64,000 nucleotides of DNA, taken from NCBI GenBank assembly GCA_947561715.1, contig OX387202.1, forward strand, positions 8,011,001 through 8,075,000, in the 5' to 3' direction. Positions 1 to 64,000 of the stretch are shown piece after piece; position 1 is the first letter of the stretch, and every line of letters begins with the position of its first letter. The translations under genes and the position numbers were made by a program. The notes under the pieces are model-generated. The model was not told the DNA's origin, did no database searches, and worked only from the letters and a program-made list of their open reading frames with translations. This DNA is from Ascidia mentula (taxonomy: Eukaryota > Chordata > Ascidiacea > Phlebobranchia > Ascidiidae).

Positions 1-99
1 GTGGAAAACGCTGGTACTCCAGTATTGCTTTTGCGGTTGCACAACGTATGTAACTGAGCGATTTCAGCACTTGTCCATTTTGCAGTATATGATTTTTCG
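1..99 (+). repeat. Partial monomer at left edge
   Basis: This corresponds to monomer positions 40-138, cut by the window boundary. It carries the TAACTGAGCG variant at 51-60, which puts a TGA in the otherwise open forward frame. The same variant appears about 27 times in the window, usually immediately upstream of a monomer with TTGCGTTTGC, as it is here (monomer at 100). Confidence 0.95.
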
Positions 100-651
100 A
101 TGAAAAATATTTTTTTGCAGTACAAGCTTTATTATACAGTGGAAAACGCTGATACTCCAGTATTGCGTTTGCGGTTGCACAACGTATGTAACTGTGCAAT
201 TTCAGCACTTGTCCATTTTGCAGTATATGACTTTTCGATGAAAAATATTTTTTTGCAGTACAAGCTTTATTGTACAGTGGAAAACGCTGATACTCCAGTA
301 TTGCTTTTGCGGTTGAACAACGTATGTAACTATGCGATTTCAGCACTTGTCCATTTTGCAGTATATGACTTTTCGATGAAAAATATTTTTTTGCAGTACA
401 AGCTTTATTATACAGTGGAAAACGCTGATACTCCATTATTGCTTTTGCGGTTGCACAACGTATGTAACTGTGCGATTTCAGCACTTGTCCATTTTGCAGT
501 ATATGACTTTTCGATGAAAAATATTAATTTGCAGTACAAGCTTTATTATACAGTGGAAAACGTTGATACTCCAGTATTGCTTTTGCGGTTGCACAACGTA
601 TGTAACTATGCGATTTCAGCACTTGTCCATTTTGCAGTATATGACTTTTCG

Positions 652-789
652 ATGAAAAATATTTTTTTGCAGTACAAGCTTTATTATACAGTGGAAAACG
701 CTGATACTCCAGTATTGCTTTTGCGGTTGCACAACGTATGTAACTATGCGATTTCAGCACTTGTCCATTTTGCAGTATATGACTTTTCG
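652..789 (+). repeat. Reference A-type monomer, exact consensus
   Basis: This copy carries the commonest base at every position I compared and serves as the reference unit. Its first 21 bp have T at position 11 and G at position 18, so it contains the perfect 12-bp palindrome AAAAATATTTTT (4-15) and ends in TTGCAG. TTTTGCAGTA occurs twice (14-23 and 117-126), and a related TTTTGCGGTT lies at 68-77. GTTG-CA-CAAC (75-84) is a short inverted repeat. The phase is arbitrary: the array does not show where the biological unit begins. Confidence 0.95.
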
Positions 790-1202
790 ATGAAAAATAT
801 TTTTTTGCAGTACAAGCTTTATTTTTCAGTGGAAAACGCTGATACTCCAGTATTGCTTTTGCGGTTGCACAAAGTATGTAACTATGCAATTTCAGCACTT
901 GTCCATTTTGCAGTATATGACTTTTCGATGAAAAATATTTTTTTGCAGTACCAGCTTTATTATACAGTGGAAAACGCTGATACTCCAGTATTGCTTTTGC
1001 GGTTGCACAACGTATGTAACTATGAGATTTCAGCACTTGTCCATTTTGCAGTGTATGACTTTTCGACAAAAAATAATTTTTTCAGTACAAGCTTTATGAT
1101 ACAGTGGAAAACGCTGATACTCCAGTATTGCTTTTGCGGTTGCACAACGTATGTAACTATGCGATTTCAGCACTTGTCCATTTTGCAGTATATGACTTTT
1201 CG

Positions 1203-1340
1203 ATGAAAAATAATTTTTTTCAGTACAAGCTTTATTATACAGTGGAAAACGCTGATACTCCAGTATTGCTTTTGCGGTTGCACAACGTATGTAACTATGC
1301 GATTTCAGCACTTGTCCATTTTGCAGTATATGACTTTTCG
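1203..1340 (+). repeat. Reference B-type monomer
   Basis: This copy equals the A-type consensus except at two linked positions in its first 21 bp: T11 to A and G18 to T. These changes destroy the AAAAATATTTTT palindrome and turn TTGCAG into TTTCAG. B-type copies occur throughout the array in several sub-versions, with position 1-5 reading ATGAA, ATAAA, ACAAA or ATGCA, and a further form carrying an additional A at position 12. A-type and B-type copies are interspersed but do not alternate strictly. A few copies have only one of the two changes and look like recombinants, for example 7276 and 34739. Confidence 0.9.
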
Positions 1341-2997
1341 ATGAAAAATATTTTTTTGCAGTACAAGCTTTATTATACAGTGGAAAACGCTGATACTCCA
1401 GTGTTGCTTTTGCGGTTGCACAACGTATGTAACTATGAGATTTCAGCACTTGTCCATTTTGCAGTGTATGACTTTTCGACAAAAAATAATTTTTTTCAGT
1501 ACAAGCTTTATTATACAGTGGAAAACGCTGATACTCCAGTATTGCTTTTGCGGTTGCACAACGTATGTAACTATGAGATTTTAGCACTTGTCCATTTTGC
1601 AGTGTATGACTTTTCGATAAAAAATAAAATTTTTTCAGTACAAGCTTTATTATACAGTGGAAAACGCTGATACTCCAGTATTGCTTTTGTGGTTGCACAA
1701 CGTATGTAACTGTGCGATTTCAGCACTTGTCCATTTTGCAGTATATGACTTTTCGATGAAAAATATTTTTTTGCAGTACAAGCTTTATTATACAGTGGAA
1801 AACGCTGATACTCCAGTATTGCTTTTGCGGTTGCACAACGTATGTAACTATGCGATTTCAGCACTTGTCCATTTTGCAGTATATAACTTTTCGATGAAAA
1901 ATATTTTTTTGCAGTACAAGCTTTATTTTTCAGTGGAAAACGCTGATACTCCAGTATTGCTTTTGCGGTTGCACAAAGTATGTAACTATGCAATTTCAGC
2001 ACTTGTCCATTTTGCAGTATATGACTTTTCGATGAAAAATATTTTTTTGCAGTACCAGCTTTATTATACAGTGGAAAACGCTGATACTCCAGTATTGCTT
2101 TTGCGGTTGCACAACGTATGTAACTATGAGATTTCAGCACTTGTCCATTTTGCAGTGTATGACATTTCGACAAAAAATAATTTTTTTCAGTACAAGTTTT
2201 ATGATACAGTGGAAAATGCTGATACTCCAGTATTGCTTTTGCGGTTGCACAACGTATGTAACTATGCGATTTCAGCACTTGTCCATTTTGCAGTATATGA
2301 CTTTTCGATGAAAAATAATTTTTTTCAGTACATGCTTTATTATACAGTGGAAAACGCTGATACTCCAGTATTGCTTTTGCGGTTGCACAACGTATGTAAC
2401 TATGAGATTTTAGCACTTGTCCATTTTGCAGTGTATGACTTTTCGATAAAAAATAAATTTTTTCAGTACAAGCTTTATTATACAGTGGAAAACGCTGATA
2501 CTCCAGTATTGCTTTTGTGGTTGCACAACGTATGTAACTGTGCGATTTCAGCACTTGTCCATTTTGCAGTATATGACTTTTCGATGAAAAATATTTTTTT
2601 GCAGTACAAGCTTTATTGTACAGAGGAAAACGCTGATACTCCAGTATTGCTTTTGCGGTTGAACAACGTATGTAACTATGAGATTTTAGCACTTGTCCAT
2701 TTTGCAGTGTATGACTTTTCGATAAAAAATAATTTTTTTCAGTACAAGTTTTATTATACAGTGGAAAACGCTGATACTCCAGTATTGCTTTTTCGGTTGC
2801 ACAACGTATGTAACTGTTCGATTTCAGCACTTGTCCATTTTGCAGTATATGACTTTTCGATGCAAAATAATTTTTTTCAGTACAAGCTTTATTATACAGT
2901 GGAAAACGCTGGTACTCCAGTATTGCTTTTGCGGTTGCACAACGTATGTAACTGAGCGATTTCAGCACTTGTCCATTTTGCAGTATATGATTTTTCG

Positions 2998-5757
2998 ATG
3001 AAAAATATTTTTTTGCAGTACAAGCTTTATTATACAGTGGAAAACGCTGATACTCCAGTATTGCGTTTGCGGTTGCACAACGTATGTAACTGTGCAATTT
3101 CAGCACTTGTCCATTTTGCAGTATATGACTTTTCGATGAAAAATATTTTTTTGCAGTACAAGCTTTATTGTACAGTGGAAAACGCTGATACTCCAGTATT
3201 GCTTTTGCGGTTGAACAACGTATGTAACTATGCGATTTCAGCACTTGTCCATTTTGCAGTATATGACTTTTCGATGAAAAATATTTTTTTGCAGTACAAG
3301 CTTTATTATACAGTGGAAAACGCTGATACTCCAGTATTGCTTTTGCGGTTGCACAACGTATGTAACTATGCGATTTCAGCACTTGTCCATTTTGCAGTAT
3401 ATGACTATTCGATGAAAAATATTTTTTTGCAGTACAAGCTTTATTATACAGTGGAAAACGCTGATACTCCAGTATTGCTTTTGCTGTTGCACAACGTATG
3501 TAACTATGCGATTTCAGCACTTGTCCATTTTGCAGTATATGACTTTTCGATGAAAAATATTTTTTTGCTGTACAAGCTTTATTATACACTGGAAAACGCT
3601 GATACTCCAGTATTGCATTTGCGGTTGCACAACGTATGTAACTATGAGATTTCAGCACTTGTCCATTTTGCAGTGTATGACTTTTCGATAAAAAATAATT
3701 TTTTTCAGTACAAGCTTTATTATACAGTGGAAAACGCTGATACTCCAGTATTGCTTTTGCGGTTGCACAACGTATGTAACTATGCGATTTCAGCACTTGT
3801 CCATTTTGCAGTATATGACTTTTCGATGAAAAATATTTTTTTGCAGTACAAGCTTTATTTTTCAGTGGAAAACGCTGATACTCCAGTATTGCTTTTGCGG
3901 TTGCACAAAGTATGTAACTATGCAATTTCAGCAATTGTCCATTTTGCAGTATATGACTTTTCGATGAAAAATATTTTTTTGCAGTACAAGCTTTATTATA
4001 CAGTGGAAAACGCTGATACTCCAGTATTGCTTTTGCGGTTGTACAACGTATGTAACTATGAGATTTCAGCACTTGTCCATTTTGCAGTGTATGACTTTTC
4101 GATAAAAAATAATTTTTTTCAGTACAAGCTTTATTATACAGTGGAAAACGCTGATACTCCAGTATTGCTTTTGCGGCTGCACAACGTATGTAACTGTGCG
4201 ATTTCAGTACTTGTCCATTTTGCAGTATATGACTTTTCGATAAAAAATAATTTTTTTCAGTACAAGCTTTATTTTACAGTGGAAAACGCTGGTACTCCAG
4301 TATTGCCTTTGCGGTTGCACAACGTATGTAACTGTGCGATTTCAGCACTTGTCCATTTTGCAGTATATGATTTTTCGATGAAAAATATTTTTTTGCAGTA
4401 CAAGCTTTATTATACAGTGGAAAACGCTGATACTCCAGTATTGCTTTTGCGGTTGCACAACGTATGTAACTGTGCAATTTCAGCACTTGTCCATTTTGCA
4501 GTATATGATTTTTTGTGAAAAAATAATTTTTTTCAGTACAAGCTTTATTATACAGTGGAAAACGCTGGTATTCCAGTATTGCTTTTGCTGTTGCACAACG
4601 TATGTAACTATGCGATTTCAGCACTTGTCCATTTTGCAGTATATGACTTTTCGATGAAAAATATTTTTTTGCTGTACAAGCTTTATTATACACTGGAAAA
4701 CGCTGATACTCCAGTATTGCATTTGCGGTTGCACAACGTATGTAACTATGCGATTTCAGCACTTGTCCATTTTGCAGTATATGAATTTTCGATGAAAAAT
4801 ATTTTTTTTGCAGTACAAGCTTTATTATACCGTGGAAAACGCTGATACTCCAGTATTGCTTTTGCGGTTGCACAACGTCTGTAACTATGCGATTTCAGCA
4901 CTTGTCCATTTTGCAGTATATGACTTTACGATGAAAAATATTTTTTTGCAGTACAAGTTTTATTATACAGTGGAAAACGCTGATACTCCAGTATTGCTTT
5001 TGCGGTTGCACAACGTATGTAACTGTGCGATTTCAGCACTTGTCCATTTTGCAGTATATGACTTTTCGATGAAAAATATTAATTTGCAGTACAAGCTTTA
5101 TTATACAGTGGAAAACGTTGATACTCCAGTATTGCTTTTGCGGTTGCACAACGTATGTATCTATGCGATTTCAGCACTTGTCCATTTTGCAGTATATGAC
5201 TTTTCGATGAAAAATATTTTTTTGCTGTACAAGATTTATTATACAGTGGAAAACGTTGATACTCCAGTATTGCTTTTGCGGTTGCACAACGTATGTAACT
5301 ATGCGATTTCAGCACTTGTCCATTTTGCAGTATATGACTTTTCGATGAAAAATATTTTTTTGCAGTACAAGCTTTATTTTTCAGTGGAAAACGCTGATAC
5401 TCCAGTATTGCTTTTGCGGTTGCACAAAGTATGTAACTATGCAATTTCAGCACTTGTCCATTTTGCAGTATATGACTTTTCGATGAAAAATATTTTTTTG
5501 CAGTACCAGCTTTATTATACAGTGGAAAACGCTGATACTCCAGTATTGCTTTTGAGGTTGCACAACGTATGTAACTATGAGATTTCAGCACTTGTCCATT
5601 TTGCAGTGTATGACTTTTCGACAAAAAATAATTTTTGCAGTACAAGCTTTATGATACAGTGGAAAACGCAGATACTCCAGTATTGCTTTTGCGGTTGCAC
5701 AACGTATGTAACTATGCGATTTCAGCACTTGTCCATTTTGCAGTATATGACTTTTCG
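2998..5757 (+). repeat. P module, copy 1 (20 monomers)
   Basis: Diagnostic order: TTGCGTTTGC (2998), TATTGTACAG (3136), two consensus-like copies, GCTGTACAAG with TACACTGG (3550), B-type, TATTTTTCAG (3826), GGTTGTACAAC (3964), CAGTACTTG (4102), TTGCCTTTGC (4240), then TTTTTTGTGAAAA (end of the 4378 monomer), GGTATTCCAG (4516), the 8-T insertion with TATACCGTGG (4792) and a compensating 1-bp loss in the monomer at 5621. Related copies start at 15004, 31702, 37361 and 51985. They differ in the number of monomers before TTTTTTGTGAAAA (11, 11, 10, 10 and 9). Confidence 0.85.
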
Positions 5758-5895
5758 ATGAAAAATAATTTTTTTCAGTACAAGCTTTATGATACAGTGG
5801 AAAACGCTGATACTCCAGTATTGCTTTTGCGGTTGCACAACGTATGTAACTATGCGATTTCAGCACTTGTCCATTTTGCAGTATATGACTTTTCG

Positions 5896-7370
5896 ATGAA
5901 AAATAATTTTTTTCAGTACAAGCTTTATTATACAGTGGAAAACGCTGGTACTCCAGTATTGCTTTTGCGGTTGCACAACGTATGTAACTATGCGATTTCA
6001 GCACTTGTCCATTTTGCAGTATACGACTTTTCGATGAAAAATATTTTTTTGCAGTACAAGCTTTGTTATACAGTGGAAAACGCTGATACTCCAGTATTGC
6101 TTTTGCGGTTGCACAACGTATGTAACTATGCGATTTCAGCACTTGTCCATTTTGCAGTATATGACTTTTCGATGAAAAATATTTTTTTGCAGTACAAGCT
6201 TTATTATACAGTGGAAAACGCTGATACTCCAGTATTGCTTTTGCGGTTGCACAACGTATGTAACTATGAGATTTCAGCACTTGTCCATTTTGCAGTGTAT
6301 GACTTTTCGACAAAAAATAATTTTTTTCAGTACAAGCTCTATTATACAGTGGAAAACGCTGATACTCCAGTATTGCTTTTGCGGTTGCACAACGTATGTA
6401 ACTATGCGATTTTAGCACTTGTCCATTTTGCAGTGTATGACTTTTCGATAAAAAATAAATTTTTTCAGTACAAGCTTTATTATACAGTGGAAAACGCTGA
6501 TACTCCAGTATTGCTTTTGTGGTTGCACAACGTATGTAACTGTGCGATTTCAGCACTTGTCCATTTTGCAGTATATGACTTTTCGATGCAAAATAATTTT
6601 TTTCAGTACAAGCTTTATTATACAGTGGAAAAAGCTGGTACTCCAGTATTGCTTTTGCGGTTGCACAACGTATGTAACTGAGCGATTTCAGCACTTGTCC
6701 ATTTTGCAGTATATGAATTTTCGATGAAAAATATTTTTTTGCAGTACAAGCTTTATTATACAGTGGAAAACGCTGATACTCCAGTATTGCTTTTGCGGTT
6801 GCACAACGTATGTAACTGTGCAATTTCAGCACTTGTCCATTTTGCAGTATATGACTTTTCGATGAAAAATATTTTTTTGCAGTACAAGCTTTATTATACA
6901 GTGGAAAACGCTGATACTCCAGTATTGCTTTTGCGGTTGCACAACGTATGTAACTATGAGATTTCAGCACTTGTCCATTTTGCAGTGTATGACTTTTCGA
7001 CAAAAAATAATTTTTTTCAGTACAAGCTTTATTATACAGTGGAAAACGCTGATACTCCAGTATTGCTTTTGCGGTTGCACAACGTATGTAACTATGAGAT
7101 TTCAGCACTTGTCCATTTTGCAGTGTATGACTTTTCGACAAAAAATAATTTTTTTCAGTACAAGCTTTATTATACAGTGGAAAACGCTGATACTCCAGTA
7201 TTGCTTTTGTGGTTGCACAACGTCTGTAACTATGCGATTTCAGCACGTGTCTATTTTGCAGTGTATGACTTTTCGATGAAAAATATTTTTTTTCAGTACA
7301 AGCTTTATTATACAGTGGAAAACGCTGATACTCCAGTATTGCTTTTGCGGTTGCACAACGTATGTAACTA
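5896..7370 (+). repeat. R sub-block, first of a 42-monomer-spaced pair
   Basis: Landmarks are GGTACTCC with a B-type head (5896), GCTTTGTTAT (6034), GAAAAAGCTGG (6586), the TGA variant (about 6679), GAATTTTCG (about 6715) and GCACGTGTCTATTTT (about 7244). All recur 5796 bp (42 x 138) downstream at 11692-13166. The two copies part company inside the 7276/13072 monomer (TATGAGATT versus TATGCGATT). The pair lies inside the 87-monomer unit and explains how that unit ends. Confidence 0.8.
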
Positions 7371-8103
7371 TGAGATTTCAGCACTTGTCCATTTTGCAGT
7401 ATATGACTTTTCGATGAAAAATATTTTTTTGCAGTACAAGCTTTATTATACAGTGGAAAACGCTGATACTCCAGTATTGCTTTTGCGGTTGCACAACGTA
7501 TGTAACTATGCGATTTCAGCACTTGTCCATTTTGCAGTATATGACTTTTCGATGAAAAATATTTTTTTGCAGTACAAGCTTTATTATACAGTGGAAAACG
7601 CTGATACTCCAGTATTGCTTTTGCGGTTGCACAAGGTATGTAACTATGCGATTTCAGCACTTGTCCATTTTGCAGTATATGACTTTTCGATAAAAAATAA
7701 TTTTTTTCAGTACAAGCTTTATTATACAGTGAAAAACGCTGATACTCCAGTATTCCTTTTGCGGTTGCACAACGTATGTAACTATGCGATTTCAGCACTT
7801 GTCCATTTTGCAGTATATGACTTTTCGATGAAAAATATTTTTTTGCAGTAAAAGCTTTATTATACAGTGGAAAACGCTGATACTCCAGTATTGCTTTTGC
7901 GGTTGCACACCGTATGTAACTATGCGATTTCAGCACTTGTCCATTTTGCAGTATATGACTTTTCGATAAAAAATAATTTTTTTCAGTACAAGCTTTATTA
8001 TACGGTGGAAAACGCTGATACTCCAGTATTGCTTGTGCGGTTGCACAACGTATGTAACTATCAGATTTCAGCACTTGTCCATTTTGCAGTGTATGACATT
8101 TCG

Positions 8104-10311
8104 ATAAAAAATATTTTTTTTCAGTACAAGCTTTATTATACAGTGGAAAACGCTGATACTCCAGTATTGCTTTTGCGGTTGCACAACGTATGTAACTGTG
8201 CGATTTCAGCACTTGTCCATTTTGCAGTATATGATTTTTCGATGAAAAATATTTTTTTGCAGTACAAGCTTTATTATACAGAGGAAAACGCTGATACTCC
8301 AGTATTGCATTTGCGGTTGCACAACGTATGTAACTGTGCAATTTCAGCACTTGTCCATTTTGCAGTATATGACTTTTCGATAAAAAATATTTTTTTGCGG
8401 TACAAGCTTTATTATACAGTGGAAAACGCTGATACTCCAGTATTGCTTTTGCGGTTGCACAACGTATGTAACTATGCGATTTCAGCACTTGTCCATTTTG
8501 CAGTATATGACTTTTCGATGAAAAATATTTTTTTGCAGTAAAAGCTTTATTATACAGTGGAAAACGCTGATACTCCAGTATTGCTTTTGCGGTTGCACAA
8601 CGTATGAAACTATGCGATTTCAGGACTTGTCCATTTTGCAGTATATGACTTTTCGATGAAAAATATTTTTTTGCAGTACAAGCTTTATTATACAGTGGAA
8701 AACGCTGATAATCCAGTATTGCTTTTGCGGTTGCACACCGTATGTAACTATGCGATTTCAGCACTTGTCCATTTTGCAGTATATGACTTTTCGATAAAAA
8801 ATAATTTTTTTCAGTACAAGCTTTATTATACGGTGGAAAACGCTGATACTCCAGTATTGCTTGTGCGGTTGCACAACGTATGTAACTATCAGATTTCAGC
8901 ACTTGTCCATTTTGCAGTGTATGACATTTCGATAAAAAATATTTTTTTTCAGTACAAGCTTTATTATACAGTGGAAAACGCTGATACTCCAGTATTGCTT
9001 TTGCGGTTGCACAACGTATGTAACTGTGCGATTTCAGCACTTGTCCATTTTGCAGTATATGATTTTTCGATGAAAAATATTTTTTTGCAGTACAAGCTTT
9101 ATTATACAGTGGAAAACGCTGATACTCCAGTATTGCATTTGCGGTTGCACAACGTATGTAACTATGCGATTTCAGCACTTGTCCATTTTGCAGTATATGA
9201 CTTTTCGATGAAAAATATTTTTTTGCAGTACAAGCTTTATTATACAGTGGAAAACGCTGATACTCCAGTATTGCTTTTGCGGTTGCACAACGTATGTAAC
9301 TATGAGATTTTAGCACTTGTCCATTTTGCAGTGTATGACTTTTCGATAAAAAATAAATTTTTTCAGTACAAGCTTTATTATACAGTGGAAAACGCTGATA
9401 CTCCAGTATTGCTTTTGTGGTTGCACAACGTATGTAACTGTGCGATTTCAGCACTTGTCCATTTTGCAGTATATGACTTTTCGATGCAAAATATTTTTTT
9501 GCAGTACAAGCTTTATTATACAGTGGAAAACGCTGATACTCCAGTATTGCTTTTGCGGTTGCACAACGTATGTAACTGTGCAATTTCAGCACTTGTCCAT
9601 TTTGCAGTATATGACTTTTCGATGAAAAATATTTTTTTGCAGTACAAGCTTTATTGTACAGAGGAAAACGCTGATACTCCAGTATTGCTTTTGCGGTTGA
9701 ACAACGTATGTAACTATGAGATTTTAGCACTTGTCCATTTTGCAGTGTATGACTTTTCGATAAAAAATAATTTTTTTCAGTACAAGTTTTATTATACAGT
9801 GGAAAACGCTGATACTCCAGTATTGCTTTTTCGGTTGCACAACGTATGTAACTGTGCGATTTCAGCACTTGTCAATTTTGCAGTATATGACTTTTCGATG
9901 CAAAATAATTTTTTTCAGTACAAGCTTTATTATACAGTGGAAAACGCTGGTACTCCAGTATTGCTTTTGCGGTTGCACAACGTATGTAACTGAGCGATTT
10001 CAGCACTTGTCCATTTTGCAGTATATGATTTTTCGATGAAAAATATTTTTTTGCAGTACAAGCTTTATTATACAGTGGAAAACGCTGATACTCCAGTATT
10101 GCGTTTGCGGTTGCACAACGTATGTATCTGTGCAATTTCAGCACTTGTCCATTTTGCAGTATATGACTTTTCGATGAAAAATATTTTTTTGCAGTACAAG
10201 CTTTATTGTACAGTGGAAAACGCTGATACTCCAGTATTGCTTTTGCGGTTGCACAACGTATGTAACTATCAGATTTCAGCACTTGTCCATTTTGCAGTGT
10301 ATGACATTTCG
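8104..10311 (+). repeat. R module, 16-monomer (2208-bp) tandem unit, copy 1
   Basis: The unit runs from an ATAAAAAATATTTTTTTTCAG-like hybrid head (8104) through CAGAGGAAAA/TTGCATTTGC (8242), TTGCGGTACAAG (8380), GCAGTAAAAG (8518, in-frame TAA), GTATGAAAC with TTTCAGGACTT (about 8602-8627), and GATAATCC with GCACACCGT (8656). The same order restarts at 10312. Equivalent 2208-bp spacing is seen at 20662/22870 and 25492/27700. Confidence 0.82.
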
Positions 10312-11630
10312 ATAAAAAATATTTTTTTTCAGTACAAGCTTTATTATACAGTGGAAAACGCTGATACTCCAGTATTGCTTTTGCGGTTGCACAACGTATG
10401 TAACTGTGCGATTTCAGCACTTGTCCATTTTGCAGTATATGATTTTTCGATGAAAAATATTTTTTTGCAGTACAAGCTTTATTATACAGAGGAAAACGCT
10501 GATACTCCAGTATTGCATTTGCGGTTGCACAACGTATGTAACTGTGCAATTTCAGCACTTGTCCATTTTGCAGTATATGACTTTTCGATAAAAAATATTT
10601 TTTTGCGGTACAAGCTTTATTATACAGTGGAAAACGCTGATACTCCAGTATTGCTTTTGCGGTTGCACAACGTATGTAACTATGCGATTTCAGCACTTGT
10701 CCATTTTGCAGTATATGACTTTTCGATGAAAAATATTTTTTTGCAGTAAAAGCTTTATTATACAGTGGAAAACGCTGATACTCCAGTATTGCTTTTGCGG
10801 TTGCACAACGTATGAAACTATGCGATTTCAGGACTTGTCCATTTTGCAGTATATGACTTTTCGATGAAAAATATTTTTTTGCAGTACAAGCTTTATTATA
10901 CAGTGGAAAACGCTGATAATCCAGTATTGCTTTTGCGGTTGCACACCGTATGTAACTATGCGATTTCAGCACTTGTCCATTTTGCAGTATATGACATTTC
11001 GATAAAAAATAATTTTTTTCAGTACAAGCTTTATTATACGGTGGAAAACGCTGATACTCCAGTATTGCTTGTGCGGTTGCACAACGTATGTAACTATCAG
11101 ATTTCAGCACTTGTCCATTTTGCAGTGTATGACATTTCGATAAAAAATATTTTTTTTCAGTACAAGTTTTATTATACAGTGGAAAACGCTGATACTCCAG
11201 TATTGCTTTTGCGGTTGCACAACGTATGTAACTGTGCGATTTCAGCACTTGTCCATTTTGCAGTATCTGATTTTTCGATGAAAAATATTTTTTTGCAGTA
11301 CAAGCTTTATTATACAGTGGAAAACGCTGATACTCCAGTATTGCATTTGCGGTTGCACAACGTATGTAACTATGCGATTTCAGCACTTGTCCATTTTGCA
11401 GTATATGACTTTTCGATGAAAAATATTTTTTTGCAGTACAAGCTTTATTATACAGTGGAAAACGCTGATACTCCAGTATTGCTTTTGCGGTTGCACAACG
11501 TATGTAACTATGAGATTTTAGCACTTGTCCATTTTGCAGTGTATGACTTTTCGATAAAAAATAAATTTTTTCAGTACAAGCTTTATTATACAGTGGAAAA
11601 CGCTGATACTCCAGTATTGCTTTTGCGGTT
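10312..11630 (+). repeat. R module, 16-monomer unit, copy 2 (partial)
   Basis: This repeats 8104-9420 at +2208 bp, including the GTATGAAAC/GGACTT monomer (10810) and the GATAATCC monomer (10864). It diverges in the monomer at 11554, which has TTTTGCGG where the first copy (9346) has TTTTGTGG. From 11692 the sequence switches to the 5896-type block. Confidence 0.8.
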
Positions 11631-16200: not shown

Positions 16201-19200
16201 TGTGCGATTTCAGTACTTGTCCATTTTGAAGTATATGACTTTTCGATAAAAAATAATTTTTTTCAGTACAAGCTTTATTTTACAGTGGAAAACGCTGGTA
16301 CTCCAGTATTGCCTTTGCGGTTGCACAACGTATGTAACTGTGCGATTTCAGCACTTGTCCATTTTGCAGTATATGATTTTTCGATGAAAAATATTTTTTT
16401 GCAGTACAAGCTTTATTATACAGTGGAAAACGCTGATACTCCAGTATTGCTTTTGCGGTTGCACAACGTATGTAACTGTGCAATTTCAGCACTTGTCCAT
16501 TTTGCAGTATATGATTTTTTGTGAAAAAATAATTTTTTTCAGTACAAGCTTTATTATACAGTGGAAAACGCTGGTATTCCAGTATTGCTTTTGCTGTTGC
16601 ACAACGTATGTAACTATGCGATTTCAGCACTTGTCCATTTTGCAGTATATGACTTTTCGATGAAAAACATTTTTTTGCTGTACAAGCTTTATTATACACT
16701 GGAAAACGCTGATACTCCAGTATTGCATTTGCGGTTGCACAACGTATGTAACTATGCGATTTCAGCACTTGTCCATTTTGCAGTATATGAATTTTCGATG
16801 AAAAATATTTTTTTTGCAGTACAAGCTTTATTATACCGTGGAAAACGCTGATACTCCAGTATTGCTTTTGCGGTTGCACAACGTCTGTAACTATGCGATT
16901 TCAGCACTTGTCCATTTTGCAGTATATGACTTTACGATGAAAAATATTTTTTTGCAGTACAAGTTTTATTATACAGTGGAAAACGCTGATACTCCAGTAT
17001 TGCTTTTGCGGTTGCACAACGTATGTAACTGTGCGATTTCAGCACTTGTCCATTTTGCAGTATATGACTTTTCGATGAAAAATATTAATTTGCAGTACAA
17101 GCTTTATTATACAGTGGAAAACGTTGATACTCCAGTATTGCTTTTGCGGTTGCACAACGTATGTAACTGTGCGATTTCAGCACTTGTCCATTTTGCAGTA
17201 TATGACTTTTCGATGAAAAATATTTTTTTGCTGTACAAGATTTATTATACAGTGGAAAACGTTGATACTCCAGTATTGCTTTTGCGGTTGCACAACGTAT
17301 GTAACTATGCGATTTCAGCACTTGTCCATTTTGCAGTATATGACTTTTCGATGAAAAATATTTTTTTGCAGTACAAGCTTTATTTTTCAGTGGAAAACGC
17401 TGATACTCCAGTATTGCTTTTGCGGTTGCACAAAGTATGTAACTATGCAATTTCAGCACTTGTCCATTTTGCAGTATATGACTTTTCGATGAAAAATATT
17501 TTTTTGCAGTACCAGCTTTATTATACAGTGGAAAACGCTGATACTCCAGTATTGCTTTTGAGGTTGCACAACGTATGTAACTATGAGATTTCAGCACTTG
17601 TCCATTTTGCAGTGTATGACTTTTCGACAAAAAATAATTTTTTCAGTACAAGCTTTATGATACAGTGGAAAACGCAGATACTCCAGTATTGCTTTTGCGG
17701 TTGCACAACGTATGTAACTATGCGATTTCAGCACTTGTCCATTTTGCAGTATATGACTTTTCGATGAAAAATAATTTTTTTCAGTACAAGCTTTATTATA
17801 CAGTGGAAAACGCTGATACTCCAGTATTGCTTTTGCGGTTGCACAACGTATGTAACTATGCGATTTCAGCACTTGTCCATTTTGCAGTATATGACTTTTC
17901 GATGAAAAATAATTTTTTTCAGTACAAGCTTTATTATACAGTGGAAAACGCTGGTACTCCAGTATTGCTTTTGCGGTTGCACAACGTATGTAACTATGCG
18001 ATTTCAGCACTTGTCCATTTTGCAGTATACGACTTTTCGATGAAAAATATTTTTTTGCAGTACAAGCTTTGTTATACAGTGGAAAACGCTGATACTCCAG
18101 TATTGCTTTTGCGGTTGCACAACGTATGTAACTATGCGATTTCAGCACTTGTCCATTTTGCAGTATATGACTTTTCGATGAAAAATATTTTTTTGCAGTA
18201 CAAGCTTTATTATACAGTGGAAAACGCTGATACTCCAGTATTGCTTTTGCGGTTGCACAACGTATGTAACTATGAGATTTCAGCACTTGTCCATTTTGCA
18301 GTGTATGACTTTTCGACAAAAAATAATTTTTTTCAGTACAAGCTCTATTATACAGTGGAAAACGCTGATACTCCAGTATTGCTTTTGCGGTTGCACAACG
18401 TATGTAACTATGCGATTTTAGCACTTGTCCATTTTGCAGTGTATGACTTTTCGATAAAAAATAAATTTTTTCAGTACAAGCTTTATTATACAGTGGAAAA
18501 CGCTGATACTCCAGTATTGCTTTTGTGGTTGCACAACGTATGTAACTGTGCGATTTCAGCACTTGTCCATTTTGCAGTATATGACTTTTCGATGCAAAAT
18601 AATTTTTTGCAGTACAAGCTTTATTATACAGTGGAAAAAGCTGGTACTCCAGTATTGCTTTTGCGGTTGCACAACGTATGTAACTGAGCGATTTCAGCAC
18701 TTGTCCATTTTGCAGTATATGAATTTTCGATGAAAAATATTTTTTTGCAGTACAAGCTTTATTATACAGTGGAAAACGCTGATACTCCAGTATTGCTTTT
18801 GCGGTTGCACAACGTATGTAACTGTGCAATTTCAGCACTTGTCCATTTTGCAGTATATGACTTTTCGATGAAAAATATTTTTTTGCAGTACAAGCTTTAT
18901 TATACAGTGGAAAACGCTGATACTCCAGTATTGCTTTTGCGGTTGCACAACGTATGTAACTATGAGATTTCAGCACTTGTCCATTTTGCAGTGTATGACT
19001 TTTCGACAAAAAATAATTTTTTTCAGTACAAGCTTTATTATACAGTGGAAAACGCTGATACTCCAGTATTGCTTTCGCGGTTGCACAACGTATGTAACTA
19101 TGAGATTTCAGCACTTGTCCATTTTGCAGTGTATGACTTTTCGACAAAAAATAATTTTTTTCAGTACAAGCTTTATTATACAGTGGAAAACGCTGATACT

Positions 19201-22200
19201 CCAGTATTGCTTTTGTGGTTGCACAACGTCTGTAACTATGCGATTTCAGCACGTGTCTATTTTGCAGTGTATGACTTTTCGATGAAAAATATTTTTTTTC
19301 AGTACAAGCTTTATTATACAGTGGAAAACGCTGATACTCCAGTATTGCTTTTGCGGTTGCACAACGTATGTAACTATGAGATTTCAGCACTTGTCCATTT
19401 TGCAGTATATGACTTTTCGATGAAAAATATTTTTTTGCAGTACAAGCTTTATTATACAGTGGAAAACGCTGATACTCCAGTATTGCTTTTGCGGTTGCAC
19501 AACGTATGTAACTATGCGATTTCAGCACTTGTCCATTTTGCAGTATATGACTTTTCGATGAAAAATATTTTTTTGCAGTACAAGCTTTATTATACAGTGG
19601 AAAACGCTGATACTCCAGTATTGCTTTTGCGGTTGCACAAGGTATGTAACTATGCGATTTCAGCACTTGTCCATTTTGCAGTATATGACTTTTCGATAAA
19701 AAATAATTTTTTTCAGTACAAGCTTTATTATACAGTGAAAAACGCTGATACTCCAGTATTCCTTTTGCGGTTGCACAACGTATGTAACTATGCGATTTCA
19801 GCACTTGTCCATTTTGCAGTATATGACTTTTCGATGAAAAATATTTTTTTGCAGTAAAAGCTTTATTATACAGTGGAAAACGCTGATACTCCAGTATTGC
19901 TTTTGCGGTTGCACACCGTATGTAACTATGCGATTTCAGCACTTGTCCATTTTGCAGTATATGACTTTTCGATAAAAAATAATTTTTTTCAGTACAAGCT
20001 TTATTATACGGTGGAAAACGCTGATACTCCAGTATTGCTTGTGCGGTTGCACAACGTATGTAACTATCAGATTTCAGCACTTGTCCATTTTGCAGTGTAT
20101 GACATTTCGATAAAAAATATTTTTTTTCAGTACAAGCTTTATTATACAGTGGAAAACGCTGATACTCCAGTATTGCTTTTGCGGTTGCACAACGTATGTA
20201 ACTGTGCGATTTCAGCACTTGTCCATTTTGCAGTATATGATTTTTCGATGAAAAATATTTTTTTGCAGTACAAGCTTTATTATACAGAGGAAAACGCTGA
20301 TACTCCAGTATTGCATTTGCGGTTGCACAACGTATGTAACTGTGCAATTTCAGCACTTGTCCATTTTGCAGTATATGACTTTTCGATAAAAAATATTTTT
20401 TTGCGGTACAAGCTTTATTATACAGTGGAAAACGCTGATACTCCAGTATTGCTTTTGCGGTTGCACAACGTATGTAACTATGCGATTTCAGCACTTGTCC
20501 ATTTTGCAGTATATGACTTTTCGATGAAAAATATTTTTTTGCAGTAAAAGCTTTATTATACAGTGGAAAACGCTGATACTCCAGTATTGCTTTTGCGGTT
20601 GCACAACGTATGAAACTATGCGATTTCAGGACTTGTCCATTTTGCAGTATATGACTTTTCGATGAAAAATATTTTTTTGCAGTACAAGCTTTATTATACA
20701 GTGGAAAACGCTGATAATCCAGTATTGCTTTTGCGGTTGCACACCGTATGTAACTATGCGATTTCAGCACTTGTCCATTTTGCAGTATATGACTTTTCGA
20801 TAAAAAATAATTTTTTTCAGTACAAGCTTTATTATACGGTGGAAAACGCTGATACTCCAGTATTGCTTGTGCGGTTGCACAACGTATGTAACTATCAGAT
20901 TTCAGCACTTGTCCATTTTGCAGTGTATGACATTTCGATAAAAAATATTTTTTTTCAGTACAAGCTTTATTATACAGTGGAAAACGCTGATACTCCAGTA
21001 TTGCTTTTGCGGTTGCACAACGTATGTAACTGTGCGATTTCAGCACTTGTCCATTTTGCAGTATATGATTTTTCGATGAAAAATATTTTTTTGCAGTACA
21101 AGCTTTATTATACAGTGGAAAACGCTGATACTCCAGTATTGCATTTGCGGTTGCACAACGTATGTAACTATGCGATTTCAGCACTTGTCCATTTTGCAGT
21201 ATATGACTTTTCGATGAAAAATATTTTTTTGCAGTACAAGCTTTATTATACAGTGGAAAACGCTGATACTCCAGTATTGCTTTTGCGGTTGCACAACGTA
21301 TGTAACTATGAGATTTTAGCACTTGTCCATTTTGCAGTGTATGACTTTTCGATAAAAAATAAATTTTTTCAGTACAAGCTTTATTATACAGTGGAAAACG
21401 CTGATACTCCAGTATTGCTTTTGTGGTTGCACAACGTATGTAACTGTGCGATTTCAGCACTTGTCCATTTTGCAGTATATGACTTTTCGATGCAAAATAT
21501 TTTTTTGCAGTACAAGCTTTATTATACAGTGGAAAACGCTGATACTCCAGTATTGCTTTTGCGGTTGCACAACGTATGTAACTGTGCAATTTCAGCACTT
21601 GTCCATTTTGCAGTATATGACTTTTCGATGAAAAATATTTTTTTGCAGTACAAGCTTTATTGTACAGAGGAAAACGCTGATACTCCAGTATTGCTTTTGC
21701 GGTTGAACAACGTATGTAACTATGAGATTTTAGCACTTGTCCATTTTGCAGTGTATGACTTTTCGATAAAAAATAATTTTTTTCAGTACAAGTTTTATTA
21801 TACAGTGGAAAACGCTGATACTCCAGTATTGCTTTTTCGGTTGCACAACGTATGTAACTGTGCGATTTCAGCACTTGTCAATTTTGCAGTATATGACTTT
21901 TCGATGCAAAATAATTTTTTTCAGTACAAGCTTTATTATACAGTGGAAAACGCTGGTACTCCAGTATTGCTTTTGCGGTTGCACAACGTATGTAACTGAG
22001 CGATTTCAGCACTTGTCCATTTTGCAGTATATGATTTTTCGATGAAAAATATTTTTTTGCAGTACAAGCTTTATTATACAGTGGAAAACGCTGATACTCC
22101 AGTATTGCGTTTGCGGTTGCACAACGTATGTATCTGTGCAATTTCAGCACTTGTCCATTTTGCAGTATATGACTTTTCGATGAAAAATATTTTTTTGCAG

Positions 22201-23973
22201 TACAAGCTTTATTGTACAGTGGAAAACGCTGATACTCCAGTATTGCTTTTGCGGTTGCACAACGTATGTAACTATCAGATTTCAGCACTTGTCCATTTTG
22301 CAGTGTATGACATTTCGATAAAAAATATTTTTTTTCAGTACAAGCTTTATTATACAGTGGAAAACGCTGATACTCCAGTATTGCTTTTGCGGTTGCACAA
22401 CGTATGTAACTGTGCGATTTCAGCACTTGTCCATTTTGCAGTATATGATTTTTCGATGAAAAATATTTTTTTGCAGTACAAGCTTTATTATACAGAGGAA
22501 AACGCTGATACTCCAGTATTGCATTTGCGGTTGCACAACGTATGTAACTGTGCAATTTCAGCACTTGTCCATTTTGCAGTATATGACTTTTCGATAAAAA
22601 ATATTTTTTTGCGGTACAAGCTTTATTATACAGTGGAAAACGCTGATACTCCAGTATTGCTTTTGCGGTTGCACAACGTATGTAACTATGCGATTTCAGC
22701 ACTTGTCCATTTTGCAGTATATGACTTTTCGATGAAAAATATTTTTTTGCAGTAAAAGCTTTATTATACAGTGGAAAACGCTGATACTCCAGTATTGCTT
22801 TTGCGGTTGCACAACGTATGAAACTATGCGATTTCAGGACTTGTCCATTTTGCAGTATATGACTTTTCGATGAAAAATATTTTTTTGCAGTACAAGCTTT
22901 ATTATACAGTGGAAAACGCTGATAATCCAGTATTGCTTTTGCGGTTGCACACCGTATGTAACTATGCGATTTCAGCACTTGTCCATTTTGCAGTATATGA
23001 CATTTCGATAAAAAATAATTTTTTTCAGTACAAGCTTTATTATACGGTGGAAAACGCTGATACTCCAGTATTGCTTGTGCGGTTGCACAACGTATGTAAC
23101 TATCAGATTTCAGCACTTGTCCATTTTGCAGTGTATGACGTTTCGATAAAAAATATTTTTTTTCAGTACAAGTTTTATTATACAGTGGAAAACGCTGATA
23201 CTCCAGTATTGCTTTTGCGGTTGCACAACGTATGTAACTGTGCGATTTCAGCACTTGTCCATTTTGCAGTATCTGATTTTTCGATGAAAAATATTTTTTT
23301 GCAGTACAAGCTTTATTATACAGTGGAAAACGCTGATACTCCAGTATTGCATTTGCGGTTGCACAACGTATGTAACTATGCGATTTCAGCACTTGTCCAT
23401 TTTGCAGTATATGACTTTTCGATGAAAAATATTTTTTTTCAGTACAAGCTTTATTATACAGTGGAAAACGCTGATACTCCAGTATTGCTTTTGCGGTTGC
23501 ACAACGTATGTAACTATGAGATTTTAGCACTTGTCCATTTTGCAGTGTATGACTTTTCGATAAAAAATAAATTTTTTCAGTACAAGCTTTATTATACAGT
23601 GGAAAACGCTGATACTCCAGTATTGCTTTTGCGGTTGCACAACGTATGTAACTATGCGATTTCAGCACTTGTCCATTTTGCAGTATATGACTTTTCGATG
23701 AAAAATAATTTTTTTCAGTACAAGCTTTATTATACAATGGAAAACGCTGGTACTCCAGTATTGCTTTTGCGGTTGCACAACGTATGTAACTATGCGATTT
23801 CAGCACTTGTCCATTTTGCAGTATACGACTTTTCGATGAAAAACATTTTTTTGCAGTACAAGCTTTGTTATACAGTGGAAAACGCTGATACTCCAGTATT
23901 GCTTTTGCGGTTGCACAACGTATGTAACTGTGCAATTTCAGCACTTGTCCATTTTGCAGTATATGACTTTTCG
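13210..23973 (+). repeat. 87-monomer higher-order repeat, copy 2 (incomplete)
   Basis: This matches 1203-11967 at an offset of 12,006 bp. Visible differences are scattered single substitutions, for example AACTTT/GACTTT at about 1886/13892, GACTATTC/GACTTTTC at about 3404/15410, TTTTGCAG/TTTTGAAG at about 4224/16230 and TTTTGCGG/TTTCGCGG at about 7068/19074. The match ends inside the monomer at 23836: its first part equals the GCTTTGTTAT monomer at 11830, and its second part equals the monomer at 12520. Five monomers (690 bp) present in copy 1 are therefore missing at this junction. Confidence 0.88.
15004..17763 (+). repeat. P module, copy 2
   Basis: This is the counterpart of 2998-5757 at +12,006 bp, with the same 11 monomers before TTTTTTGTGAAAA (about 16512), the same 8-T plus TATACCGTGG monomer (16798) and the same compensating 1-bp loss (monomer 17627). 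Small differences from copy 1 include AAACATTTT in the monomer at 16660 and TGTAACTGTGC near 17161 against TGTATCTATGC near 5155. Confidence 0.85.
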
Positions 23974-25050
23974 ATGAAAAATATTTTTTTGCAGTACAAG
24001 CTTTATTATACAGTGGAAAACGCTGATACTCCAGTATTGCTTTTGCGGTTGCACAACGTATGTAACTATGAGATTTCAGCACTTGTCCATTTTGCAGTGT
24101 ATGACTTTTCGACAAAAAATAATTTTTTTCAGTACAAGCTTTATTATACAGTGGAAAACGCTGATACTCCAGTATTGCTTTTGCGGTTGCACAACGTATG
24201 TAACTATGAGATTTCAGCACTTGTCCATTTTGCAGTGTATGACTTTTCGACAAAAAATAATTTTTTTCAGTACAAGCTTTATTATACAGTGGAAAACGCT
24301 GATACTCCAGTATTGCTTTTGTGGTTGCACAACGTCTGTAACTATGCGATTTCAGCACGTGTCTATTTTGCAGTGTATGACTTTTCGATGAAAAATATTT
24401 TTTTTCAGTACAAGCTTTATTATACAGTGGAAAACGCTGATACTCCAGTATTGCTTTTGCGGTTGCACAACGTATGTAACTATGAGATTTCAGCACTTGT
24501 CCATTTTGCAGTATATGACTTTTCGATGAAAAATATTTTTTTGCAGTACAAGCTTTATTATACAGTGGAAAACGCTGATACTCCAGTATTGCTTTTGCGG
24601 TTGCACAAAGTATGTAACTATGCGATTTCAGCACTTGTCCATTTTGCAGTATATGACTTTTCGATGAAAAATATTTTTTTGCAGTACAAGCTTTATTATA
24701 CAGTGGAAAACGCTGATACTCCAGTATTGCTTTTGCGGTTGCACAAGGTATGTAACTATGCGATTTCAGCACTTGTCCATTTTGCAGTATATGACTTTTC
24801 GATAAAAAATAATTTTTTTCAGTACAAGCTTTATTATACAGTGAAAAACGCTGATACTCCAGTATTCCTTTTGCGGTTGCACAACGTATGTAACTATGCG
24901 ATTTCAGCACTTGTCCATTTTGCAGTATATGACTTTTCGATGAAAAATATTTTTTTGCAGTAAAAGCTTTATTATACAGTGGAAAACGCTGATACTCCAG
25001 TATTGCTTTTGCGGTTGCACACCGTATGTAACTGTGCGATTTCAGCACTT
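23974..25050 (+). repeat. R segment joined by two in-register deletions
   Basis: From 23.93 to about 25.04 kb the sequence follows 18.82-19.94 kb at an offset of 5106 bp (37 x 138), including the GCACGTGTCTATTTT monomer (24.36 kb) and the GCAGTAAAAG stop variant (24.96 kb). At about 25.03 kb the monomer changes from a GCACACCGT type to a TGTGCGATT type. The offset then becomes 4830 bp (35 x 138), so two monomers (276 bp) are missing relative to 19.9-20.2 kb. Confidence 0.8.
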
Positions 25051-28000: not shown

Positions 28001-28450
28001 AGTTTTATTATACAGTGGAAAACGCTGATACTCCAGTATTGCTTTTGCGGTTGCACAACGTATGTAACTGTGCGATTTCAGCACTTGTCCATTTTGCAGT
28101 ATCTGATTTTTCGATGAAAAATATTTTTTTGCAGTACAAGCTTTATTATACAGTGGAAAACGCTGATACTCCAGTATTGCATTTGCGGTTGCACAACGTA
28201 TGTAACTATGCGATTTCAGCACTTGTCCATTTTGCAGTATATGACTTTTCGATGAAAAATATTTTTTTGCAGTACAAGCTTTATTATACAGTGGAAAACG
28301 CTGATACTCCAGTATTGCTTTTGCGGTTGCACAACGTATGTAACTATGAGATTTTAGCACTTGTCCATTTTGCAGTGTATGACTTTTCGATAAAAAATAA
28401 ATTTTTTCAGTACAAGCTTTATTATACAGTGGAAAACGCTGATACTCCAG
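25051..28450 (+). repeat. R segment, copy of 20.2-23.6 kb (+4830 bp)
   Basis: Landmarks 20608, 20662, 21446, 22042 and 22870 reappear at 25438, 25492, 26276, 26872 and 27700, all +4830 bp (35 x 138). The match ends in the monomer at 28390, which has TTTTGTGG where 23560 has TTTTGCGG. The GTATGAAAC/GGACTT monomers at 25438 and 27646 keep both linked variants. Confidence 0.83.
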
Positions 28451-29217: not shown

Positions 29218-29493
29218 ATGAAAAATATTTTTTTGCAGTACAAGCTTTATTATACAGTGGAAAACGCTGATACTCCAGTATTGCGTTTGCGGTTGCACAA
29301 CGTATGTATCTGTGCAATTTCAGCACTTGTCCATTTTGCAGTATATGACTTTTCGATGAAAAATATTTTTTTGCAGTACAAGCTTTATTATACAGTGGAA
29401 AACGCTGATACTCCAGTATTGCGTTTGCGGTTGCACAACGTATGTATCTGTGCAATTTCAGCACTTGTCCATTTTGCAGTATATGACTTTTCG
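29218..29493 (+). repeat. Single-monomer tandem duplication
   Basis: Two successive monomers, 29218-29355 and 29356-29493, share the rare pair TTGCGTTTGC and GTATGTATCTGTGCAATT. Elsewhere in R this monomer occurs once per unit. This accounts exactly for the 138-bp difference between the 17- and 18-monomer units. Confidence 0.85.
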
Positions 29494-61507: not shown

Positions 61508-63162
61508 ATGAAAAATATTTTTTTGCAGTACAAGCTTTATTATACAGTGGAAAACGCTGATAATCCAGTATTGCTTTTGCGGTTGCACTCCGTATGTAAC
61601 TATGCGATTTCAGCACTTGTCCATTTTGCAGTATATGACTTTTCGATAAAAAATAATTTTTTGCAGTACAAGCTTTATTATACGGTGGAAAACGCTGATA
61701 CTCCAGTATTGCTTGTGCGGTTGCACAACGTATGTACCTATCAGATTTCAGCACTTGTCCATTTTGCAGTGTATGACATTTCGATAAAAAATATTTTTTT
61801 TCAGTACAAGCTTTATTATACAGTGGAAAACGCTGATACTCCAGTATTGCTTTTGCGGTTGCACAACGTATGTAACTGTGCGATTTCAGCACTTGTCCAT
61901 TTTGCAGTATATGATTTTTCGATGAAAAATATTTTTTTGCAGTACAAGCTTTATTATACAGTGGAAAACGCTGATACTCCAGTATTGCTTTTGCGGTTGC
62001 ACAACGTATGTAATTATGAGATTTCAGCACTTGTCCATTTTGCAGTATATGACTTTTCGATGAAAAATATTTTTTTGCAGTACAAGCTTTATTATACAGT
62101 GGAAAACGCTGATACTCCAGTATTGCTTTTGCGGTTGCACAACGTATGTAACTATGCGATTTCAGCACTTGTCCATTTTGCAGTATATGACTTTTCGATG
62201 AAAAATATTTTTTTGCAGTACAAGCTTTATTATACAGTGGAAAACGCTGATACTCCAGTATTGCTTTTGCGGTTGCACAACGTATGTAACTATGCGATTT
62301 CAGCACTTGTCCATTTTGCAGTATATGACTTTTCGATGAAAAATATTTTTTTGCAGTACAAGCTTTATTATACAGTGGAAAACGCTGATACTCCAGTATT
62401 GCTTTTGCGGTTGCACAACGTATGTAACTGTGCAATTTCAGCACTTGTCCATTTTGCAGTATATGACTTTTCGATAAAAAATATTTTTTTGCGGTAAAAG
62501 CTTTATTATACATTGGAAAACGCTGATACTCCAGTATTGCTTTTGTGGTTGCACAACGTCTGTAACTATGCGATTTCAGCACTTGTCCATTTTGCAGTAT
62601 ATGACTTTTCGATGAAAAATATTTTTTTGCAGTACAAGCTTTATTATACAGTGGAAAACGCTGATACTACAGTATTGCTTTTGCGGTTGCACAACGTATG
62701 TAACTATGAGATTTCAGCACTTGTCCATTTTGCAGTGTATGACTTTTCGATAAAAAATATTTTTTTTCAGTACAAGCTTTATTTTACAGTGGAAAACGCT
62801 GGTACTCCAGTATTGCCTTTGCGGTTGCCCAACGTATGTGACTGTGCGATTTCAGCACTTGTCCATTTTGCAGTATATGACTTTTCGATGAAAAATATTT
62901 TTTTGCAGTACAAGCTTTATTATACAGTGGAAAACGCTGATACTCCAGTATTGCTTTTGCGGTTGCACAACGTATGTAACTATGAGATTTCAGCACTTGT
63001 CCATTTTGCTGTGTATGACTTTTCGATAAAAAATAATTTTTTCAGTACAAGCTTTATTATACAGTGGAAAACGCTGATACTCCAGTATTGCTTTTGCGGT
63101 TGCACAACGTATGCAACTGTGCGATTTCAGCACTTGTCCGTTTTGCAGTATATGACTTTTCG
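61508..63162 (+). repeat. T/R segment, right part
   Basis: GATAATCC/GCACTCCGT (61508) is followed by CTTGTGCGG with GTATGTACCTATC (about 61729), several near-consensus A-type monomers (61922-62335), TTGCGGTAAAAG (about 62492) and TTGCCCAACGTATGTGACTG (about 62825). The monomer at 63026 is 1 bp short in its T tract, which moves the register to -3. Confidence 0.75.
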
Positions 63163-63990
63163 ATAAAAAATAATTTTTTTCAGTACAAGCTTTATTTTAC
63201 AGTGGAAAACGCTGGTACTCCAGTATTGCCTTTGCGGTTGCACAACGTATGTAACTGTGCGATTTCAGCACTTGTCCATTTTGCAGTATATGACTTTTCG
63301 ATGAAAAATATTTTTTTGCAGTACAAGCTTTATTATACAGTGGAAAACGCTGATACTCCAGTATTGCTTTTGCGGTTGCACAACGTATGTAACTATGAGA
63401 TTTCAGCACTTGTCCATCTTGCAGTGTATGACTTTTCGACAAAAAATAATTTTTTTCAGTACAAGCTTTATTATACAGTGGAAAACGCTGATACTCCAGT
63501 ATTGCTTTTGTGGTTGCACAACGTCTGTAACTATGCGATTTCAGCACTTGTCCATTTTGCAGTATATGACTTTTCGATGAAAAATATTTTTTTGCAGTAC
63601 AAGCTTTATTATACAGTGGAAAACGCTGATACTCCAGTATTGCTTTTGCGGTTGCACAACGTATGTAACTATGCGATTTCAGCACTTGTCCATTTTGCAG
63701 TATATGACTTTTCGATGAAAAATAATTTTTTTCAGTACAAGCTTTATTATACAGTGGAAAACGCTGATACTCCAGTATTGCTTTTGCGGTTGCACAACGT
63801 ATGTAACTATGCGATTTCAGCACTTGTCCATTTTGCAGTATATGACTTTTCGATGAAAAATATTTTTTTGCAGTACAAGCTTTATTATACAGTGGAAAAC
63901 GCTGATACTCCAGTATTACTTTTGCGGTTGCACAACGTATGTAACTATGAGATTTCAGCACTTGTCCATTTTGCAGTGTATGACTTTTCG
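63163..63990 (+). repeat. T module remnant grading into Q-like monomers
   Basis: The monomer at 63163 (TTGCCTTTGC) and the next two match 57506 onward (offset 5657). The last three monomers, ending with TATTACTTTT (about 63914), match the Q middle (43.44-43.7 kb and 47.03-47.3 kb). The array therefore appears to re-enter a Q module at the right edge. A private change is GTCCATCTTGC (about 63412). Confidence 0.75.
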
Positions 63991-64000
63991 ACAAAAAATA
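63991..64000 (+). repeat. Partial monomer at right edge
   Basis: Ten bases (ACAAAAAATA) of a B-type monomer are cut by the window end, so the satellite continues beyond the window. Confidence 0.9.

Follow-up and report, generated by a model that had tools for sequence, protein, structure and literature searches.

We propose that the 138-bp satellite described here is very probably the centromeric satellite of Ascidia mentula. The window, by which we mean the whole stretch of 64,000 nucleotides that was analysed (8,011,001-8,075,000 of contig C70), lies inside chromosome 6 and would be a piece of that chromosome's centromeric array. Our reading is based on genomic context: on each of the nine chromosomes one non-terminal, sub-megabase, block-duplicated region of this satellite was found, as in monocentric animals with satellite centromeres.

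The 138-bp array on chromosome 6

Tandem Repeats Finder described the window in a single row (1-64000, period 138, 463.8 copies, 95% matches, 0% indels). Self-identity was 0.924 at a lag of 138; the highest value at a lag that is not a multiple of 138 was 0.456 (lags 20-5999). Wrap-around alignment yielded 465 rows, 463 of them complete monomers, and every monomer has the same orientation. Small gaps or insertions (1-2 bases) affect 25 of these 463. The complete monomers are on average 97.0% identical to the consensus (minimum 93.5%), mean pairwise identity among the window's monomers is 95.1%, and 173 distinct monomer sequences are present. The majority consensus has a GC content of 35.5% and is exactly the sequence at positions 652-789 (plus strand). 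The window (1-64000, plus strand) is thus one uninterrupted head-to-tail satellite that belongs to an array of about 600 kb. A sequence-only reading of this DNA had counted 463 complete monomers in one orientation, which both the single Tandem Repeats Finder row and the alignment confirmed, and had named 652-789 as the consensus, which the exact match bears out.

The order of the monomers is a mosaic of block duplications and not a fixed higher-order repeat. We found 77 recurring runs of at least three consecutive identical monomers, compared with a mean of 0.15 over 20 shuffles of the order, and 61.8% of the window's monomers lie inside such runs. The blocks recur at shifts of 87, 122, 18, 26, 35, 89 and 16 monomers, among others; at the 87-monomer shift, 17.3% of the pairs are identical. 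The longest exact duplicated block of whole monomers comprises 28 monomers (3,864 bp) at 7138-11001, with exact identity around this copy reaching over 7071-11133 (4,063 bp), and its identical second copy lies 12,006 bp downstream at 19144-23007. A ten-monomer block at 27148-28527 has an exact copy at a distance of 2,484 bp downstream, or 18 monomers, which is a local duplication resembling a higher-order repeat (all on the plus strand, from comparison of monomer order). There is no single dominant multi-monomer period in the window, as a classical higher-order repeat array would have. Thus, the earlier claim of higher-order organisation holds for the recurrent blocks, but not for a fixed period, as the shifts are many. 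The array of chromosome 1 may differ from the window in its higher-order organisation.

Among aligned monomers of the window, mean identity was 94.7-95.3% at the reported shifts within 1-29 and 95.9% at shift 87. Monomer identity is therefore nearly independent of distance, and neighbours are not generally more alike. A first autocorrelation pass had seemed to show identity decaying with distance. We rejected this decay because indels shift the phase; aligned monomers are flat, at about 95% at nearly all shifts.

The extent of the array outside the window rests on spot samples. The satellite was present in 13 of 13 samples from 7.850 to 8.451 Mb and in none of four outside, which places the edges near 7.8509 and 8.4506 Mb and gives a length of about 600 kb (7.851-8.451 Mb). 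As sampled, the orientation is minus at 7.851-7.872 Mb, plus at 7.880-8.327 Mb and minus at 8.340-8.4506 Mb, and the sample at 8.200 Mb begins with a quarter kilobase of non-satellite sequence. The description of the satellite as free of transposons, spacers and inversions is therefore correct for the window, but it does not extend to the whole array, where both margins are inverted and other sequence occurs at 8.20 Mb. Reading frames at the array edges look to us like those of retroelements, perhaps of the BEL/Pao type, but neither matched a Pfam family at E 0.01. Telomere repeats (TTAGGG) lie at both ends of chromosome 6, and of chromosome 2, away from the satellite.

The margins also differ from the core in sequence. 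Monomers of the window are 0.951 identical to one another, and within each of four samples taken at 8.1-8.4 Mb the value is 0.937-0.955; at the left margin it is 0.880 (8 monomers) and 0.919 (7 monomers), and at the right 0.943 (22 monomers). As the right margin is not below the inner sample at 8.20 Mb (0.937), the gradient in homogeneity from core to margin is clear at the left only. Samples at 8.1-8.4 Mb are 0.965-0.975 identical to the consensus of the window, versus 0.920 and 0.940 at the left margin and 0.950 at the right; monomers entered the comparisons between samples if they had no more than 8 gaps and exceeded 75% identity. At three positions the consensus of the window has G, G and A, whereas all three margin samples carry 3A, 18T and 53G. 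Because 3A and 18T are each the majority state on six of the eight other chromosomes, the window consensus is probably derived. We infer that older margins surround a younger core on chromosome 6, clearly at the left and weakly at the right.

Distribution of the satellite over the genome

The assembly searched comprises 195.84 Mb in 79 contigs; the published version has 196.98 Mb in 95 scaffolds. According to the available text of the genome note (PMC11109543), the nine chromosomes measure 27.92, 19.88, 23.17, 22.72, 22.35, 21.17, 19.87, 19.66 and 15.45 Mb, the longest scaffold 27,920,005 bp and the mitochondrion 19.46 kb. Contigs C1, C2, C52, C67, C69, C70, C71, C72 and C73 correspond in this order to chromosomes 1-9, and those of chromosomes 6 and 9 are 1-5 kb shorter than published. 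The mitochondrial COX1 gene (contig C79, 19,461 bp) reads best with AGA and AGG as glycine, the ascidian code.

As the sequence-only reading had suggested, we searched the source assembly with a probe derived from the consensus. This 28-base probe, allowed up to 3 mismatches, gave 39,489 matches (23,623 forward and 15,866 reverse), and its reversed-pattern control gave none in the genome. At 138 bp per match this amounts to 5.4 Mb, or about 2.8% of the assembly. Among the matches listed and the direct samples, the satellite occurs on all nine chromosomes, in one region each. The matches listed place it at 12.46-13.28 Mb on chromosome 1, 11.90-12.77 Mb on chromosome 3, 11.67-12.33 Mb on chromosome 4, 11.29-11.87 Mb on chromosome 7, 10.05-10.66 Mb on chromosome 8 and 6.85-7.19 Mb on chromosome 9; one direct sample from each of these six chromosomes also contained it. 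On chromosome 6, listed matches at 7.85-8.41 Mb and direct samples together give 7.85-8.45 Mb.

The regions on chromosomes 2 and 5 depend more on direct samples. Chromosome 2 had one place (17.81 Mb) among the matches listed, and the satellite was found in five of five samples at 17.81-18.00 Mb, in none of four between 17.60 and 17.78 Mb and in none of three at 18.2, 19.0 and 19.5 Mb. Chromosome 5 had three places at 11.63 Mb; eight of nine samples at 11.55-12.10 Mb contained the satellite, the one at 11.70 Mb being without it, and a single sample at 11.45 Mb had none. The only places outside the nine regions, among the matches listed, were 10 on an unplaced 90-kb contig (C68). We also searched the genome with six rare single-base variants of the probe, which gave 29, 58, 110, 9, 55 and 695 matches. 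For the variants with 29, 58, 9 and 55 matches, all 151 places fell inside the one-per-chromosome regions. The regions are located at 44-60% of the chromosome length on seven chromosomes, at 37-40% on chromosome 6 and at about 90% on chromosome 2, and none lies at a chromosome end. Each is a candidate for a sub-megabase tandem array of one unit of the kind seen on chromosome 6, where 64 kb are pure and about 600 kb are indicated by spot samples.

Subfamilies were compared in samples of 25-29 monomers per chromosome, and 463 for chromosome 6. Monomers are 94.5-97.1% identical within a chromosome and 92.5-96.4% between chromosomes. Chromosomes 1, 3, 5 and 9 have 68G in common, and 67A is also found on chromosomes 1, 5 and 9. 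The monomers of chromosomes 4, 6, 7 and 8 are more alike among themselves, and chromosome 2 stands apart. With chromosomes 2 and 5 excluded, 5 of 337 distinct monomers are found on two or more contigs, and chromosome 6 has 3 of these in common with another chromosome. Given these few common monomers and the identities between chromosomes, exchange between non-homologous chromosomes thus seems to be partial.

Centromere interpretation and its alternatives

In a survey of 282 species (PMC4053949), the available text of which we follow here, the most abundant tandem repeat was taken as candidate centromere DNA, and neither the monomer length nor the GC content of centromere repeats was conserved, with a slight AT preference in animals. 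The sequence-only reading had called the satellite a centromere candidate on the grounds of near-nucleosome length, AT-richness and higher-order organisation. In view of the survey the first two properties are not diagnostic, and the higher-order duplications are irregular; the candidacy itself is well supported by the genomic context, with one non-terminal region on each of the nine chromosomes. Against the centromeric reading stand, among other observations, the chromosome 2 region, which is off-centre and had one match among those listed, and the negative sequence results given below. The functional centromere could also be a subdomain of the array, or could lie on a different sequence within the arrays or next to them.

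We found no sequence-specific recruiting signal in the satellite. The 64-kb window contains no exact match to NTTCGNNNNANNCGGGN, which we take to be the CENP-B box motif. Dyad-rich centromeric satellites are a recognised class, and one consensus monomer, folded as a single strand, did not fold better than shuffled sequence; it folded more weakly than the shuffle mean (z +1.09), and 168 of 200 shuffles folded at least as well. There was no 10-bp periodicity of AA/TT/TA, which had 0.044 of the power, while 500 shuffles averaged 0.046; among the AA/TT/TA harmonics of the satellite, the one at 8.1 bp is the strongest. In a balanced pool of 203 distinct monomers from the nine chromosomes, no conserved box was significant against column shuffles (p 0.15-0.53), and the most conserved 17 bp, TTTGCGGTTGCACAACG, did not exceed them (p 0.34). 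Nor was there any CpG decay as a sign of methylation, as CpG columns vary by 0.036 and other columns by 0.035. A candidate structured RNA was rejected: the one Rfam match in window positions 1-3000 scored 17.9 bits (E 0.75), below the cut-off of 80, and we took it as chance.

Satellite arrays are mostly pericentromeric in many species. It is conceivable, though in our judgement unlikely, that the 138-bp satellite forms pericentromeric heterochromatin and that the true centromere lies on another sequence, such as an insertion-rich island in the array. The absence of a CENP-B box, of favourable folding and of a conserved box is in keeping with this alternative, and so is the non-satellite sequence inside at least two regions, at 8.20 Mb on chromosome 6 and 11.70 Mb on chromosome 5. 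However, one region per chromosome was found, and on chromosome 6 all 13 spot samples within the array contained the satellite, so that any island there would have to fit between neighbouring samples.

It is very improbable that the satellite is non-centromeric and was amplified at some arbitrary or heterochromatic location, for example as a knob. Maize offers a precedent, as its knob repeats outnumber the centromere repeat (PMC4053949, available text). However, the satellite was found in a single region on every one of the nine chromosomes, the 151 rare-variant places given above are confined to these regions, and only the few places on the unplaced contig lie elsewhere among the matches listed.

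The idea that the satellite is a gene for a tandem-repeat protein, for which 138 bp would be 46 codons and open frames extend to 1,608 codons, has practically no chance of being correct: two of the six consensus frames are open, and the open minus frame shows some synonymous excess (0.276 vs 0.220 expected), but across the 438 of 463 complete monomers without indels that were used for this test the two open frames contain 53 (plus) and 28 (minus) in-frame stops, frame-shifting indels occur in the window's array, the synonymous fraction in the open plus frame is below expectation (0.176 vs 0.213), the doubled frames have no Pfam match above the cut-off (one to DUF5831 reached 17.4 bits vs 25), and the probe matches in the genome number in the tens of thousands. 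We rejected it on the stops and indels. Long open frames arise because 138 is divisible by 3, and from the frame list and the test of stops and variants we judge the 1,608-codon frame (21878-26704, minus strand) to be a by-product and not a gene.

We return to the centromeric reading, under which the arrays would carry a centromeric histone. A Pfam histone search of the genome found tandem clusters on chromosome 3 and contig C53, and an H3-like match on chromosome 2. The latter gene has two exons near 7.692-7.694 Mb on the minus strand, which were joined by eye. Over the 98 residues so obtained, the best match is canonical H3 (101 bits); relative to it, loop 1 is longer by one residue and a W is aligned with the F that we take as F84. 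Each of the best 60 of 176 PDB matches is an H3 type or a histone-domain protein; the name CENP-A does not appear among these 60. In Oikopleura, the available text describes a CenH3 whose tail is very divergent, whose L1 is extended and in which F84 is replaced by W, all given as characteristic of CenH3, and a gene with introns (PMC3156773). Thus, the chromosome 2 gene is a candidate that likely encodes a CenH3-like histone, and its loop 1 extension and W for F therefore make a CenH3-based centromere likely in Ascidia mentula. Other divergent histone matches, on chromosomes 8 and 5, were set aside as H2B-like from their translations.

Based on these observations, we propose a model in which the arrays would carry CenH3 nucleosomes and one kinetochore would be built per chromosome. 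The satellite DNA would most likely be a permissive, homogeneous platform, with centromere identity inherited epigenetically. We favour such a platform because the searches above detected no sequence-specific signal that would recruit CenH3. Uniformity of the array may be maintained by unequal exchange and by duplication of blocks of up to thousands of bases, with older inverted monomers seemingly remaining behind at the margins, clearly at the left one only.

Comparison with known systems

Among the papers listed in literature searches, titles and abstract openings contained no description of this satellite or of an Ascidia mentula centromere, and in a word search of the genome note (PMC11109543) centromer-, satellite and tandem repeat were all absent. 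The kind of sequence is in itself ordinary, but it is a useful handle in a group with poorly known centromeres. In tunicates, the sister group of vertebrates, centromeric DNA is unresolved (Oikopleura, PMC8008620) or predicted only (Botryllus, PMC12448946), according to the available texts. A satellite on nine chromosomes, together with a candidate CenH3 gene, offers a ready probe and a testable map of ascidian centromeres.

Within the tunicates, the Botryllus schlosseri paper, in its available text, predicts centromeric repeats and reports a long stretch of tandem repeats that lies between 16 and 17 Mb in one sequence (PMC12448946). Our case is similar in being a long tandem-repeat region with a computational prediction, a likeness by description only. 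Oikopleura dioica, also a tunicate, has the CenH3 with extended L1 and F84 to W mentioned above (PMC3156773); it differs in that, according to the available text, the authors did not succeed in finding high-copy tandem repeats that mark its centromeres (PMC8008620). The Eurasian badger has a satellite monomer of 138 bp (PMC10153287, available text). Here the unit length alone is alike; the badger is a mammal, and we liken the two without reference to sequence.

The CEN178 arrays of Arabidopsis show irregular, mosaic higher-order duplications rather than fixed higher-order repeats. They resemble the present array in these duplications and in their near-nucleosome unit, again without likeness of sequence being implied. 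They differ in monomer length (PMC4053949, available text) and belong to another kingdom.

A further parallel, drawn on organisation, is with human alpha satellite. Like the Ascidia satellite, alpha satellite forms large homogeneous arrays in one region per chromosome, with block duplication and with groups of chromosomes that have subfamilies in common. Its monomer differs in length, at 171 bp (PMC4053949, available text), and the window has neither a CENP-B box nor a fixed higher-order repeat. It is possible, at somewhat less than an even chance, that the centromeres of ascidians rest on a genome-wide satellite in which the main features of alpha satellite have arisen independently, without a CENP-B-like box, and which is maintained by exchange between non-homologous chromosomes. 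These features would be large block-duplicated arrays, older inverted monomers at the margins, and chromosome groups with common subfamilies, namely chromosomes 1, 3, 5 and 9 versus 4, 6, 7 and 8, with chromosome 2 apart. If this likeness to alpha satellite is real, tunicates would offer a clean test of whether CenH3 chromatin generally gives rise to such an architecture.

Structure of the consensus monomer

The majority consensus of the window, represented by the monomer at 652-789, contains two exact copies of the 10-base repeat TTTTGCAGTA, located at window positions 665-674 and 768-777, with a spacing of 103/35. The exactness of this repeat depends on a G at monomer position 18 (G18). Because T18 is the majority base on six of the eight other chromosomes, the G18 variant looks derived. 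The AA/TT/TA harmonic of the same monomer peaks at 8.1 bp, not 10 bp, and accounts for a raw share of 20% of the power over the 39 harmonics examined.

Possible higher-order repeats and array edges

On chromosome 1 (13.142-13.193 Mb), matches to a rare single-base variant of the satellite consensus recur at 5,945-bp steps in four places and then at 4,701-bp steps in four places. These recurrences suggest that the chromosome 1 satellite forms true higher-order repeats of ~43 and ~34 monomers.

The chromosome 6 array is adjoined at both edges by open coding-like stretches, on the minus strand at the left (near 7.8500-7.8507 Mb) and on the plus strand at the right (near 8.4506-8.4510 Mb). We take their appearance to be retroelement-like (BEL/Pao); a Pfam search of both pieces matched no family to either.

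Histone genes

Chromosome 3 (12.95-13.06 Mb) and a further contig, C53, carry histone genes in tandem clusters whose repeat unit measures ~4.7 kb. The chromosome 3 cluster lies ~0.2 Mb away from the satellite region of that chromosome.

Chromosome 2 carries, on the minus strand near 7.692-7.694 Mb, a two-exon H3-like gene. We propose this gene as a candidate CenH3 of Ascidia mentula: in its protein, loop 1 is longer by one residue and tryptophan replaces the phenylalanine preceding QS.
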